This document shows, piece by piece, positions 2,960-7,372 of a stretch of DNA of 7,372 nucleotides. The position numbers were made by a program, and so were the translations under genes. Within the stretch, counting starts at the first letter, position 1. Each line of letters opens with the position of its first letter. Origin of the DNA: an uncultured Lachnospiraceae bacterium (GTDB lineage Bacteria > Bacillota_A > Clostridia > Lachnospirales > Lachnospiraceae); assembly GCA_902796775.1 (NCBI GenBank), contig CADBQK010000371.1, positions 1 through 7,372 on the forward strand, read 5' to 3'. The notes below the pieces were generated by a model that saw only the letters and a list, made by a program, of their open reading frames with translations, made no database searches and was not told where the DNA came from.

Positions 2960-4636
2960 ATGAAAAAAGCAGTGAAACTGGTCACAGCAATGGTGGTAAC
3001 ACTTTTGATTATGGCCGCATCGTGTGTGCCGGTTATGGCAGAAAACAGACCGGAGGAATCAGTCGTTAAAGTTGTTTGGACTTATCTTACAGACGCAGGA
3101 GTCTATGCAGATATCAAGTTTGGAACAAGCTTTCTGATTAACGAAAATACGGTTCTTACAAATTATCACAATCTTGTATTTATCAATTCGGATGAGAAAA
3201 AAGCTATAATAGAATATCTTAATTCGGAGTATGGCCTTAATCTTTCTAAGCTTGAGTCGAATGACAGGCATTTTCATTGTTACATTCTTCCGAACAGAGA
3301 TACTCGTGTTGACTGTACAATAGATGCAAATGTAGTATCCGATATTGATCATCTGGATCTTGTGGCTCTGCATCTCAGCACGCCAGTTCTGGATCGGACA
3401 CCTGCGGTTCTGGGCAATTCATCAGAATGCAAAATTACGGATCAGGTATTTGCATATGGATTCCCGATAGATTCTTTGAACAACAAAGAAGAGAACACGA
3501 TAGACGACGTATCTGTTGTAAGCGGAAACATATCCAAGATGACAGTGCTGCCTTATGCGGATTGCATTGAACATTCAGCTCAGCTGACTGATGGAAATTC
3601 CGGTGGACCTCTTTGCAATAAGGATGGATGTGTTATAGGTGTCAATGAATATATTATTGATAAGAAGAATTATTCTATTCAGATTGATCAAGTTAAATCC
3701 ATACTGAATACATATGGTATATCATACACTACATCGGATGATCTTGCTACCGCTCCTGCAGCGGAACCGGATACATCAGTTGCAACTGTTGCGCCGGAAC
3801 CGGAACTCGATAAATCGGGTCTTGAAAGTGCCATTGATGCCGCTAGGATCAAACTTCAGGAGAATCTGGCACCTGAATCCAAAACTGCACTGGAAACAGC
3901 TTTGAGCGATGCGCAGAACACATTGAGGACAGCTGATACACAGGAAGCTTTAAACAATGCAGCATCAACCTTGAATAGAAATATTGATGACGCTCAAATC
4001 AAAAAGCTTGGAGTGAATCCGCTCATTATTGCAGCGATAGCAGCAGCGATTATTGTTCTTCTTATTATCATTCTTATTATCTCCAGCAATAATAAAAAGA
4101 AAAAAGCGGAACAGGAGAGAAGAAGAAGATCATATACTGGCGGCATGAATGACGGTCCGGTCAACCAGAATATGAATTATCAGAATACATATCCTGAGAC
4201 AGGTGGCGGGGCACCGGAAATAAGTGGCGGCCTTGGAAATATGAATGTCACAACCGACCCGGTCTCTATGGGAGATGAAGGTACTTTTATGTTGAACCAG
4301 GGGGCTGACGGAACAACAATACTGAACAATAGTTTTGATAATGCTGCATATTTGATTCGTAAAAAAACCGGTGAGAGAGTTATTCTTTCGAACAGTAATT
4401 TTGTAATCGGTAAAGAAAAGAGCAAAGTGGATTATTGCATTACAGACAATACTGCCATCTCCAGAACACATGCTATCATAAAGAAAGAAGGAGATGATTT
4501 TGTTATCGTTGATCAGAAGTCTACGAACTGCTCTTATGTAGATGGCGCGAAAGCTTATCCGAATCAGCCTGTTCAGATCAGGGACGGATCGGTCATTAAG
4601 CTGGCGGATGAGGAATTTGAATTCCATAAAGCATAA
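2960..4636 (+). CDS. Membrane-spanning protein: exported trypsin-like protease fused to a cytosolic FHA domain
   Basis: A Sec signal peptide (1-27, probable cut VMA|EN) leads into a trypsin/HtrA-type serine protease domain (about 33-255). A complete triad is visible: His70 in VLTNYHNLV, Asp133 in DHLDLVAL and Ser214 in DGNSGGP. A helical FIVAR-like segment (about 283-345) follows, then a transmembrane helix (about 354-376). A basic stop-transfer run (KKKKKAEQERRRR) places the C-terminus in the cytosol. After a Gly/Asn-rich linker comes an FHA phospho-threonine-binding domain (about 462-556), with FVIGKEKS, the core SRTHAIIKK (501-509) and STNCSYVDG (521-529); the usual G-R is G-K (Lys485) and the usual NGT is NCS. 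The mature protease has six Cys (107, 119, 157, 202, 219, 224), which may form disulfides. Start: GAGGGAGG at 2946-2953, six nt before ATG. Domain order and topology are clear; substrate and ligand are unknown. Confidence 0.9.
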   Translation: MKKAVKLVTAMVVTLLIMAASCVPVMAENRPEESVVKVVWTYLTDAGVYADIKFGTSFLINENTVLTNYHNLVFINSDEKKAIIEYLNSEYGLNLSKLESNDRHFHCYILPNRDTRVDCTIDANVVSDIDHLDLVALHLSTPVLDRTPAVLGNSSECKITDQVFAYGFPIDSLNNKEENTIDDVSVVSGNISKMTVLPYADCIEHSAQLTDGNSGGPLCNKDGCVIGVNEYIIDKKNYSIQIDQVKSILNTYGISYTTSDDLATAPAAEPDTSVATVAPEPELDKSGLESAIDAARIKLQENLAPESKTALETALSDAQNTLRTADTQEALNNAASTLNRNIDDAQIKKLGVNPLIIAAIAAAIIVLLIIILIISSNNKKKKAEQERRRRSYTGGMNDGPVNQNMNYQNTYPETGGGAPEISGGLGNMNVTTDPVSMGDEGTFMLNQGADGTTILNNSFDNAAYLIRKKTGERVILSNSNFVIGKEKSKVDYCITDNTAISRTHAIIKKEGDDFVIVDQKSTNCSYVDGAKAYPNQPVQIRDGSVIKLADEEFEFHKA

Positions 4637-4652
4637 TATTGAAGAACATTAC

Positions 4653-4664
4653 AGGGTGAGTATC
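4653..4664 (+). promoter_or_regulatory. Shine-Dalgarno site deciding a TTG start for the phosphatase
   Basis: The GGTGA core (4655-4659) pairs with the 16S rRNA tail and lies 5 nt before TTG 4665. The in-frame GTG at 4656 sits inside this site and has only a weak gaag upstream. In-frame ATGs at 4542 and 4608 lie inside the FHA coding sequence without a good site. Confidence 0.55.
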
Positions 4665-5462
4665 TTGAAGTTTGAATGTGCTCTTTATAGCGATGTGGGC
4701 ATCGTAAAAAAAACAAATCAGGATTCAATGCTGCTTAAAGAAGCGGAGACCGATTACGGAAGAATACTTCTTGCGGCAGTCTGTGATGGAATGGGCGGCC
4801 TCTCAAAAGGAGAGGTCGCAAGTGCATATGTGGTGCATCAGTTATCTGAATGGTTCGAGAATGACTTGCCGGAACTGTTATATGGGAAAAATATTCGATA
4901 TACAAATCAGGAACTCAAGAAACATATTCAGAAAGAGCTGGAACGTATCGCAGAGGAAACAAACCGGAAAATATATGAGTATGGGAGACAGCACCATACG
5001 ATGCTGGGCAGTACGCTCTCTGTTATTGTTTTGATTAAAAATCATTACTTTATTTTGAATGTGGGCGATTCCCGGGTTTATAAGGTTTATAATTCCCTGA
5101 TACAGCTGACAAAAGATCAGTCGCTTGTTCAGCAGAAAGTCGACAGAGGAGAAATAACTGAGGAAGATATGGAAAAAGATCCTCAACGTAATGTTCTGTT
5201 GCAGTGTATTGGAGCTACGTCAGATGTAAAACCGGACTTCTATAGCGGTATTTATGAGGATAATAGTGTATTTCTGTTATGTTCTGATGGATTCCGACAT
5301 GTATTGAAGAAAGAGGAGTTGTTTTTTTATTACAGACCGCAGATACTCAGCAATGAGGCTGTTATGCGGAATATATCCATGAAGCTGGTCGAGCTGAATA
5401 AGCAGCGAATGGAAAAGGATAACATTTCAGTAATCGTTATTCATGCTAAAAAGGATAGGTAA
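4665..5462 (+). CDS. PP2C-family Ser/Thr protein phosphatase
   Basis: This soluble metal-dependent phosphatase (PPM/PP2C; PrpC, Stp and PhpP are relatives) would remove phosphate from Ser/Thr residues modified by the kinase encoded downstream. From the TTG start it is 265 residues, a normal bacterial length. Motifs in order, numbered from TTG: SDVGIVKKTNQDS (9-21), VCDGMGG (39-45) with metal-binding Asp41 and Gly42, GSTLS (115-119), GDSRVY (134-139), QLTKDQS (147-153), LLCSDGF (204-210) with Asp208 and EKDNIS (250-255) with Asp252. Gln replaces Glu in the first motif, as it does in pneumococcal PhpP, so activity is expected. There is no transmembrane segment. The start is uncertain: TTG 4665 gives the family's typical beginning (MKFECALYSDVG), GTG 4656 adds three residues, and upstream ATGs would overlap the FHA gene. 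It lies 28 nt after the FHA gene and abuts the next start. Confidence 0.92.
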   Translation: MKFECALYSDVGIVKKTNQDSMLLKEAETDYGRILLAAVCDGMGGLSKGEVASAYVVHQLSEWFENDLPELLYGKNIRYTNQELKKHIQKELERIAEETNRKIYEYGRQHHTMLGSTLSVIVLIKNHYFILNVGDSRVYKVYNSLIQLTKDQSLVQQKVDRGEITEEDMEKDPQRNVLLQCIGATSDVKPDFYSGIYEDNSVFLLCSDGFRHVLKKEELFFYYRPQILSNEAVMRNISMKLVELNKQRMEKDNISVIVIHAKKDR

Positions 5463-6446
5463 ATGCTTAAACAGGGAGAATTACTGGAAGATAAATACAG
5501 AGTAGAGAAAGTCCTTTTTGAAAGTCGGACAACAGAATACTATCTGGCCTTTAAGGCTATGGAAAATATACCTGTAATAATCTCGACATGTTCATACAAT
5601 GATACGGATGATCTGGAGAACAGGATCAAAGAGCTAAAAAGTGTAAATAAATATATTGATAGCAGGATTTTAAAGATACTTGAATGCTTTCAGAAAGACT
5701 CATGGCTTTTTATTGTTCAGGAGGCGCCAAAAGGCAGTTCCGTTAAAGACAGAATTATGACACAGGGTCCATTTGAACGAAAAACAGCCCTGATGATTTC
5801 CATTGAGATAGCGAACTTGTTTGCCGACTTGTTCGGCAGATGGCCGAGACGATTAATCAATGATTTCAACAACAGCAGAGTTTATTTCACAGACGACAAA
5901 AAATTGGAATTAATCGCTGCGGATCAGATTCAGCCGATGACAGAGCTTGGAAAAGATGGGGAGAAAGAGTGCATTCGCGCGCTTGGCCTCACTATGTATC
6001 AGATAACAACAGGTGTTAACGATCTGTCATCATTTCATCAAAACCAGGTCAATACTTTGGAGGTGCCCTTTATCATACCCGGTTTTGGTAAAAAATACAG
6101 TGAAGTGATACGAAAATGTATTACTGCAGAGTATGCTGATCTAAAAAACCCGTTCAAGCAGATCAGTAAGGATTTAAAGCAGGCTAAATTATTTGACGGG
6201 CTATTTGGTTTCTCGACAACGGAAAATAGAAATTCATCCGAGCGAACGAAAGAAGCTGCGAACAGAGCAGATGCCGGATCTGAAAATCAATTTAAGAATC
6301 AGAATGCGAGTCAAATCGAATCAGATACAGTAAGACTTGATCAGGTGCAGCATGTACCTGAAGCCGTGAAGAAAAATTCGGCATACGCAGGACGTTTTGA
6401 TATTGTTAGAAGCGATATGTGGATTCATACCAGGGAGATAATCTGA
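5463..6446 (+). CDS. Predicted pseudokinase (degenerate protein-kinase-fold protein)
   Basis: The protein of 327 residues follows the layout of a bacterial Ser/Thr kinase but lacks the catalytic signature. Recognisable parts are the opening LLEDKYRVEKVL (7-18), a hinge-like LFIVQEAPKGSSVKDRI (82-98), a helix-F-like ALGLTMYQITTG (173-184) and a final lobe helix near 213-242. The glycine loop has become LFESRTTEYYLA (18-29, no glycine), the VAIK lysine is Ser41 (PVIIS), HRDxKxxN reads INDFNNSR (132-139; Asp134 kept, Lys and Asn lost), and DFG reads AAD (152-154). Catalysis by the usual mechanism is therefore unlikely. A polar tail (about 250-327) contains ESDTVRLD, a possible phospho-threonine site. 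It has no membrane segment. ATG 5463 follows the phosphatase stop directly, with AAGGA at 5451-5455. The likely role is a scaffold or regulator of the kinase encoded next; that is inference. Confidence 0.82.
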   Translation: MLKQGELLEDKYRVEKVLFESRTTEYYLAFKAMENIPVIISTCSYNDTDDLENRIKELKSVNKYIDSRILKILECFQKDSWLFIVQEAPKGSSVKDRIMTQGPFERKTALMISIEIANLFADLFGRWPRRLINDFNNSRVYFTDDKKLELIAADQIQPMTELGKDGEKECIRALGLTMYQITTGVNDLSSFHQNQVNTLEVPFIIPGFGKKYSEVIRKCITAEYADLKNPFKQISKDLKQAKLFDGLFGFSTTENRNSSERTKEAANRADAGSENQFKNQNASQIESDTVRLDQVQHVPEAVKKNSAYAGRFDIVRSDMWIHTREII

Positions 6447-6447
6447 C

Positions 6448-7372
6448 ATGTATATCGGACCGGGTACCTTAATAGAAAACCGATATCTGATTAAAGAAGA
6501 GATAGGCCAGGGTGGTATTGGAATTATTTACCTTGCATATCATGTTCCTCTGAAAAAAGATGTTGTAGTCAAGAAGGCTGCCCGTGGAACAAAAAATGAT
6601 TATCGAACGGAAGTGGATATTCTGAAAAACCTCCATTTTTCCGGGATTCCTCAAGTTTATGATTTTCTTGAGATAGATGGTTATGTATATACCGTTATGG
6701 ACTATATTGAAGGACATGACCTTTCCTATTACATAAAAAAAGGCGGACGTATTTCTGAAAAAAAACTTCTTGACTGGCTTGAAAAGTTGACGGAAATTCT
6801 GGATTACATACATACGCTGGAGGTACCTTATTATCACAGCGATATTAAACCAGGAAATATAATGATCACCAGTAAAGGGGAACCTTTCCTAATTGATTTT
6901 AATATTTCTGTAAAAAGCGGTGAAAACAGAGTTAAAGGAATAAGCCCGTATTATTCTGCCCCGGAACAGTATAAGCAAGCAGAAAACATAATGAGGTACC
7001 ATAACGATGGAGGCATTGTTGTGGACCATCGAATAGATATTTACAGTCTGGGAGCGTCCTTCTACACGATTATGTGCGGACGGATGCCGGGACTGTCTGA
7101 GGAGGAAACGCCACCGCTGACGATGATGGATCTTCCGTATTCTATGGCATTCAGAGCGCTGATTGATAAAACGATGCGGGAAGACCCGAAAAAAAGATTT
7201 CAATCCGCTGCTGTTATGTTGAAATCTATTCGCAATATAGTTGTAATGGATCCGGAGTACCAAAGACTGACCACCCTGCAGATTTTTCTGACAGTTCCAT
7301 TTGCTCTTTTTATGATTATTGCATTCATTCTGGTGTTCAGCGGGAACAATATGATCAGACAGGATAAATATA
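6448..7372 (+). CDS. Membrane-anchored Ser/Thr protein kinase, 3' end beyond the window
   Basis: The frame is open from ATG 6448 to the window edge (308 codons). The cytosolic kinase domain is of the PknB/PrkC (Hanks) type: glycine loop GQGGIGIIY (20-28), VVVKK with Lys42, helix-C Glu55, catalytic loop YYHSDIKPGNIM (128-139) with Asp132, Lys134 and Asn137, metal site IDFNIS (149-154) with Asp150, SAPEQY (170-175), DIYSLGASFYTIMCG (197-211) and DPKKRF (246-251). All catalytic residues are present. Two motifs deviate: HRD is HSD and DFG is DFN. The activation segment has serines but no threonine. A transmembrane helix (about 278-298) follows, so the missing C-terminus should be outside the cell; any sensor domain is not visible. 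It starts 1 nt after the pseudokinase stop, with GGGAG at 6433-6437, ten nt before ATG. PP2C upstream is the probable opposing phosphatase. Confidence 0.93.
   Translation, partial: MYIGPGTLIENRYLIKEEIGQGGIGIIYLAYHVPLKKDVVVKKAARGTKNDYRTEVDILKNLHFSGIPQVYDFLEIDGYVYTVMDYIEGHDLSYYIKKGGRISEKKLLDWLEKLTEILDYIHTLEVPYYHSDIKPGNIMITSKGEPFLIDFNISVKSGENRVKGISPYYSAPEQYKQAENIMRYHNDGGIVVDHRIDIYSLGASFYTIMCGRMPGLSEEETPPLTMMDLPYSMAFRALIDKTMREDPKKRFQSAAVMLKSIRNIVVMDPEYQRLTTLQIFLTVPFALFMIIAFILVFSGNNMIRQDKY

Follow-up and report, generated by a model that had tools for sequence, protein, structure and literature searches.

A predicted membrane-spanning trypsin-FHA fusion and its type VII secretion setting in relatives

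Mycosins are subtilisin-like proteases. MycP, the mycosin of T7SSa, is likewise a serine protease that is exported and anchored in the membrane as part of a type VII system, but the protein considered here is trypsin-like and has a predicted cytosolic FHA domain. According to the abstract of PMC5082899, the mycosin is required to keep the membrane complex stable, yet its activity is dispensable, in keeping with a family that retains catalysis in some members and not in others. PMC11217815 (Garrett, Higginson and Palmer, 2024) defines T7SSc-j and takes the presence of kinases, phosphatases and FHA proteins to suggest control by phosphorylation. There the DUF6382-FHA protein TseJ is said to be at all T7SSe loci, the giant Ig proteins TsdI and TseI are counted as type VII components, and the EssC FHA domain of T7SSb is described as lacking a phosphothreonine site and binding EssB. 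The word "protease" occurs twice in the main text, for mycosin and in a reference title, and "peptidase" and "trypsin" never; the main-text parts covered here name no protease for T7SSe or T7SSd. From 2023 on, T7SSe and T7SSd occurred as whole words in PMC11217815 only, and no trypsin-TM-FHA protein appeared in the titles or abstracts of the literature searched.

Three further systems share parts of the arrangement. Passages of PMC3953482 describe kinase-FHA control of a secretion machine in the threonine phosphorylation pathway of T6SS (PpkA, PppA, Fha), where a kinase and an FHA protein likewise act on a membrane component, although the machine is another one and its FHA domain is not fused to a protease. 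GarA and OdhI have a phosphorylatable ETTS motif before the FHA domain in passages of PMC8546545, and the title of a reference in that paper speaks of an intramolecular switch. The likeness lies in a phosphorylatable Thr motif ahead of FHA; the differences are that these are soluble metabolic regulators, with ETTS as their motif and no protease. HtrA and DegS share the trypsin fold, with a triad that is present in our protein and incomplete in 8 of 19 sampled relatives, but our protein has no detected PDZ domain, a transmembrane (TM) helix after the protease and an FHA tail.

Architecture of the protein and its neighbours

The window, a stretch of 7,372 nucleotides from an uncultured, gut-type Lachnospiraceae bacterium, contains the following features.

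2960..4636, + strand: 558-aa protein with signal peptide, trypsin-like domain, stalk, TM helix, linker and FHA domain (ORF, Pfam, alignment, model, hydropathy)
2960..3040, + strand: predicted Sec signal peptide, residues 1-27 (hydropathy; A27 conservation)
3050..3727, + strand: trypsin/HtrA-like protease domain, residues 31-256, with H70, D133 and S214 (Pfam, alignment, fold)
3815..3994, + strand: three-helix, FIVAR-like stalk, residues 286-345, optional in the family (model; PF07554 in relatives)
4019..4087, + strand: TM helix, residues 354-376 (model, hydropathy)
4088..4342, + strand: predicted cytosolic linker, mostly disordered (pLDDT below 50 for 376-382 and 387-458)
4283..4294, + strand: first TxxL motif, T442-L445 (69 of 70 rows, one gap)
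4313..4324, + strand: second TxxL motif, T452-L455 (70 of 70 rows)
4343..4627, + strand: FHA domain, residues 462-556, with pocket residues K485, S501, R502, H504 and N523 (Pfam, alignment, model)
4656..5462, + strand: PP2C/Stp1-type phosphatase, likely start GTG 4656 or TTG 4665 (family searches)
5463..6446, + strand: putative pseudokinase with adaptor-like tail, 327 aa, no TM segment seen (searches, model)
6318..6341, + strand: ESDTVRLD, a TxxL motif in the pseudokinase tail, identical in 6 of 6 (window and five relatives)
6384..6443, + strand: tail resembling the adaptor C-terminus (WIHTREII; comparison with adaptors)
6448..7371, + strand: Ser/Thr kinase, truncated by the window end, its kinase domain followed by a hydrophobic segment (searches)

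The original prediction of a signal peptide, trypsin domain, single TM helix and FHA domain in one polypeptide agrees with hydropathy, Pfam and AlphaFold2. Hydropathy exceeds 1.5 only at the N-terminus and around residues 347-381, and Pfam places Trypsin_2 (PF13365) at residues 55-228 (E 1.2e-16) and FHA (PF00498) at residues 482-548 (E 3.6e-14), both above the gathering score. Relatives were compared in an alignment of 70 rows, A3, made of the window protein, 22 of the 76 proteins found by search and 47 locus proteins, a selection that excludes a second subfamily, P0073-P0076 and any copy that was nearly identical to another, cut or broken; Ala 27, at -1 to the predicted signal peptidase site, is conserved in 65 of these rows. 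The AlphaFold2 model built on this alignment has a mean pLDDT of 82, with the protease and FHA domains mostly above 90 and linker residues 387-458 below 50, three stalk helices at 286-344 and a TM helix at 354-376. Foldseek matches the protease fold to HtrA1, Deg1, MucD and DegS (E 1e-13 to 1e-12); family searches returned trypsin families only and no subtilisin-type domain. Conservation among relatives rules out the ORF as chance or artefact, and a viral scan for phage origin gave no relative.

Eight Lys or Arg residues lie within the 15 residues after the TM helix versus three before it, so the FHA domain is predicted to be cytosolic and, as first proposed, the protease domain outside; an arrangement with both on one side of the membrane is not what these charges predict. 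The FIVAR-like helical stalk fared less evenly. Three helices are indeed modelled, but Pfam makes no FIVAR call in the window protein, PF07554 being precomputed for several relatives, and the stalk appears optional in the family, since only 38 of 70 A3 rows have at least 50 aligned stalk residues.

The protein search gave 76 proteins, the window's own included, of which 73 have both domains in a precomputed list. Another 79 hits, at the level of loci, came from a genome scan, their titles pointing mainly to Lachnospiraceae, Ruminococcus and other Clostridia. Among 246 genomes of Coriobacteriia only the starting genome matched (E 1e-30); its locus, in a Coriobacteriales MAG (L017), has a protease-FHA gene, PP2C and the start of a kinase. 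A second SP-trypsin-TM-FHA subfamily (loci L053, L057, L059, L060, L061 and L063; genomes G140, G178, G234, G077, G397 and G157) also joins both halves in one ORF. At its six loci the FHA pocket has Arg and the linker lacks the TxxL tandem, and the type VII ATPase EssC is on other contigs only or was not found. One of these loci includes a cluster without EssC (L061:6672-12501) encoding PP2C, a pseudo-trypsin-FHA, a trypsin-TM-FHA and a PrsW-FHA protein.

The fusion was expected to keep its domain order next to kinase and phosphatase genes across genera, and it does so in several: PP2C directly follows 53 of 56 ORFs (55 records, the window among them), and a kinase takes third place for 49 of 52. 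In the PP2C count L048 contributes two ORFs, L001 and L007 are near copies and L029 ends before the next gene. Exceptions to the order are L053 and L056 with other neighbours, L010 (cut), L048 and L045, where a second FHA ORF and a small opposite ORF, respectively, intervene, and the window with its pseudokinase. At L048:8846-11693 a full protease-FHA ORF is followed by a shorter, FHA-half-only ORF before PP2C. Separate genes for the two halves, which would have spoken against the fusion as a unit, were not seen in the rows examined; a candidate split version, L193 (G111), reads by eye as an ordinary HtrA-like ORF beside a ClpX-like ORF.

The operon in relatives runs protease, PP2C, kinase, adaptor, small membrane protein and Ig giant. 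The adaptor, encoded after the first kinase, has a single TM segment, repeated TTVL/TTLL and a C-terminal H[TS]xExI-like tail; that of [Ruminococcus] torques (L008:14138-14923) has seven TTLL repeats. In the window a pseudokinase with an adaptor-like tail takes the place of both first kinase and adaptor. Three observations underlie the reading of 5463..6446 as a pseudokinase: Pkinase matches it in part and below cut-off, catalytic motifs are absent on visual inspection, and the model, of low confidence (pLDDT 52), has 50 listed structure matches that are protein kinases; given the poor model and these matches, no link to EssB is drawn. Against second kinases of the fetched loci the window kinase reaches 219-274 bits (163 for the cut one of L033), against first kinases at most 140, and the window PP2C matches operon PP2Cs of these loci with up to 289 bits. 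The listed ATG of the phosphatase, at 4542, falls within the FHA gene. In the kinase (6448-7371) HSDIKPGN and DFN replace HRD and DFG, DFN likewise occurring in five of seven second kinases of relatives.

Type VII secretion loci in relatives

The original prediction mentioned neither a type VII setting nor the tandem TxxL motifs discussed below. EssC lies downstream of the protease-FHA gene on the same strand, at 1.3-19.3 kb, in 28 genomes, a count that omits G157, whose T7SS-type tail is cut by the contig end, and includes four triad-poor cases (G388, G216, G162, G080) and one broken frame (G430). Seven extended loci continue on one strand with the adaptor-like tail, a second kinase and EssC, the EssC of G006 and G007 being cut by the end of the examined stretch. 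In all seven the Ig place is occupied by an ORF of 1953-3533 aa; Pfam finds Ig families there for L002 and L019. Family searches of L087-L088 and L090 return a kinase with TPRs, a TPR protein, an FHA protein, EssC, LytTR, YukD and two WXG100 proteins. Pfam names YukD and the two WXG100 proteins in one locus, L088, whose EssC matches TIGR03928 with 1060.6 bits (cut-off 778.4) and carries an FHA domain. WXG100-like ORFs in G001, G003 and G005 come from a local profile built from these loci, and the neighbour and module labels generally use local profiles partly built from the loci they label.

Like T7SSe and T7SSd, the extended loci have an EssC-type ATPase with FHA, YukD and WXG100 proteins, a TM kinase, a PPM phosphatase, a giant Ig-like protein and small single-TM proteins; the kinase (cut) and phosphatase are present in the window too. 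They differ from T7SSe in their second kinase and in that TseJ is not at every locus. DUF6382 occurs in 24 of the 28 genomes, on other contigs only in G001 and G003, with weak matches near EssC in G002, G381, G388, G345, G299, G022 and G139, while a DUF6382-FHA TseJ was not found near EssC at several loci of this set. Most T7SSe features thus fit, and the loci are best described as a variant related to T7SSe that has an extra protease-FHA component, rather than as proven T7SSe members.

Co-occurrence with EssC is strong within one family. Among 397 Lachnospiraceae genomes, EssC is found in all 19 with both halves in one ORF versus 97 overall (hypergeometric 5.5e-13, kinship ignored), the 19 excluding G112 (FHA without a protease domain) and G157 (whose protease ORF belongs to the second subfamily). 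At the threshold used, 78 of the 97 EssC genomes have no protease-FHA protein. The second subfamily has EssC in one of its six genomes (G157). In the family of G006, left out of this count, 26 of 200 genomes matched, many over the FHA part only. In a tree of 60 chosen EssCs, with no reference TseC among them, the 13 rows with the protease-FHA gene on the same contig cluster (6 changes versus a shuffled mean of 11.9; 0 of 500 as low), whereas different-contig genomes hardly do (7 versus 8.6). The same-contig rows form two separate clades, one of which holds the triad-poor rows. From this distribution the protease-FHA protein is an accessory part of the type VII locus, gained or lost several times. 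Behind loci of the window's type (41, the 47 traced minus the six second-subfamily loci; G004, G008 and G010 left out of the search) EssC is present in 35 genomes, two of them (G412, G413) matching below the family cut-off; it was not found in the other six, of which four loci lie on contigs of 6-32 kb (L027, L034, L040, L045) and two are L048 and L049, described below. The window contig ends inside the kinase, before the Ig gene and EssC, so its own type VII link is by orthology, through the kinase and PP2C scores, the window kinase grouping with the second kinase of type VII loci.

We favour, with slightly less than even confidence, an explanation in which the gene product is an accessory part of a module under phosphothreonine control; in relatives this module usually stands at the head of a type VII locus. 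Judged by its sequence, a membrane-anchored HtrA-like domain faces outward and is joined to a cytosolic tail of two TxxL motifs and FHA, and the operon also encodes PP2C, one or more kinases and an adaptor (a pseudokinase-adaptor in the window) with the same motif. A kinase would phosphorylate the Thr of the TxxL motifs, and FHA would dock on the putative pThr-x-x-Leu of the adaptor and of neighbouring copies, gathering outer domains at the secretion apparatus and the giant Ig-like surface protein. Outside, the domain would cut or stabilise the machine: with an intact triad, like that of the window, it would act as a protease, and with a lost one it would have at least a structural function; PP2C would reset the system. 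Counting against this explanation are triad loss, the Lys in the FHA pocket and the Gly that replaces its Ser in three rows, the EssC-negative genomes, the 78 EssC genomes without the protein, the near absence of clustering among different-contig genomes, and a window that ends before EssC and has a pseudokinase in place of the first kinase.

Catalytic residues across the family

The triad predicted for the window protein sits exactly at H70, D133 and S214, and His, Asp and Ser are present in all eight rows formed by this protein and its seven nearest relatives (P0002-P0008). Across A3, H and S are kept in 70 of 70 rows and D in 69, with Asn in L014, but this overstates conservation because A3 members were found by similarity to triad-bearing proteins. 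In a less selected sample, the 19 Lachnospiraceae genomes in which a single ORF carries both halves, 11 keep all three residues and eight lack one or more (G211, G039, G153, G080, G139, G388, G216, G162). Further losses occur in P0074 and in an ORF of L061, while the second subfamily keeps a complete triad in six of six genomes. The expectation that relatives would not routinely lose the triad thus holds only in part. FHA proteins whose trypsin-like domain lacks catalytic residues were noted in P0074, L061:8191-9681, L103, L104, L106, L107, L109, L110, L112 and L115.

Taken together, the complete rows around the window and the eight losses make catalysis likely in the window's own branch; judged by these residues, it is not a universal property of the fusion family. 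In some relatives the fusion seems to have outlived catalysis, which hints at a second role for the outer domain. It is possible, though less likely than not, that the outer domain works without catalysis as a docking or stabilising part, the triad of the window's branch reflecting retained or secondary activity. The eight genomes that keep fusion and EssC with an incomplete triad, the pseudo-protease forms of P0074 and L061, and the mycosin that is needed though its activity is dispensable (abstract of PMC5082899) speak for such a role. The intact residues of the window and its seven nearest relatives count against it, as do H and S in every A3 row, selected as that set is. In the phosphothreonine-controlled module that we favour, an outer domain without catalysis would still serve as a structural part, somewhat as mycosins are needed though their activity is dispensable.

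TxxL motifs, the FHA pocket and remaining alternatives

The linker aligns poorly across A3, yet T452 and L455 are kept in 70 of 70 rows and T442 and L445 in 69. The two motifs are spaced by 10 residues directly before FHA; at least two TxxL occur in 69 of 70 linkers, and in total 144 are observed versus 16.6 after shuffling (70 related rows). In six of the eight triad-poor proteins TxxL also precedes FHA, outside the TM segment. The adaptors of 28 loci contain 138 TxxL versus 26.7 shuffled; they were chosen by their C-terminal pattern (25 of 28 with the stricter motif), so the tail is selected for and the TxxL count is not. FHA domains bind phosphothreonine with selectivity at the +3 position. 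Recognition of pT+3 is mentioned in passages of PMC3953482, and the linker TxxL is a candidate ligand of the kind expected for FHA.

The same motifs could serve a switch in cis, in which the phosphorylated TxxL of a polypeptide binds the FHA domain of the same polypeptide or of an adjacent copy, as in GarA and OdhI, and the adaptor is not the main target. The position of the two motifs just before FHA and their near-universal presence suit this idea, as does the ETTS motif ahead of FHA in GarA and OdhI (passages of PMC8546545). The adaptor, however, has as many as seven copies of the motif (L008), as would suit binding in trans, and the linker is disordered in a model made without phosphate; we regard such a switch as possible, though on the doubtful side.

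Of six DUF6382-FHA (TseJ-like) proteins, a sample in which one search recovered the ORF for four of nine loci, three have tandem TxxL before FHA (P0073, L111, L113), two have one copy (L116, L120) and one has none (P0075). Since TseJ-like proteins share the motif, the TxxL-FHA tail looks like a module joined to either DUF6382 or SP-trypsin-TM. A broader proposal, which we hold doubtful and offer as speculation, is that some Bacillota type VII systems have acquired their own outer protease in this way, and that multivalent pThr-x-x-Leu/FHA contacts in the cytosol assemble an outer array that cuts in some lineages and serves as a scaffold where the triad has decayed, an independent parallel to the mycosins. 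If this were true, a protease-derived component would have been added to Bacillota type VII systems, an FHA-ligand motif would be proposed that recurs in several proteins encoded by one operon, control of type VII secretion by phosphorylation could be tested with short peptides, and cytosolic phosphorylation steering an outer domain via one helix would be an unusual inside-out layout. Together with the usual type VII setting in relatives, the arrangement suggests that internal signals steer the outer domain, be it an active protease or an inactive cousin. A comparison of triad-bearing lineages with those that have lost the triad would reveal the purpose of the protease.

The module might instead be an independent surface-protein unit whose target is the giant Ig-like membrane protein, with type VII genes as frequent neighbours but not mechanistic partners. 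At L048 and L049, on contigs above 116 kb, the Ig gene is the last of the module, and a search of these genomes found no EssC; the Ig protein also has a C-terminal hydrophobic segment followed by Lys/Arg and should thus face the same side as the protease domain. This reading is nevertheless unlikely given that, in one family, all 19 genomes with the protein also have EssC, and that in another EssC clade the protein lies near EssC without the Ig module (L197, L199), and passages of PMC11217815 count TsdI and TseI as type VII components.

An improbable alternative makes FHA a phosphate-independent connector, comparable to the pairing of EssC FHA with the EssB pseudokinase in T7SSb. At the position usually occupied by the phosphate-binding Arg, A3 has Lys in 65 rows and Arg in five; the window also encodes a putative pseudokinase, and the T7SSb EssC FHA binds EssB without a phosphothreonine site (passages of PMC11217815). 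The position is nonetheless always basic, R502 and N523 are kept in 70 of 70 rows and S501 in 67 (Gly in three), and kinase and phosphatase genes adjoin. Phosphothreonine binding by the window's FHA domain is therefore likely, though with Lys mostly in place of the pocket Arg it is not established. An ordinary HtrA-type quality-control protease of the envelope, its neighbourhood incidental, is very improbable: the fold is closest to HtrA/Deg proteins, but Pfam finds no PDZ domain in the window protein and the operon and motifs are conserved.

PADLOC matched RT-Protease_XI to the protease, PDC-M21C to the phosphatase and PD-T4-6 and mad6 to the kinases; we read these as shared domains and set a defence system aside. 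Upstream on the same strand, at 691-2859, are genes for UDP-glucose dehydrogenase and a bacterial sugar transferase, and positions 1-138 hold the end of an ORF entering from the left.
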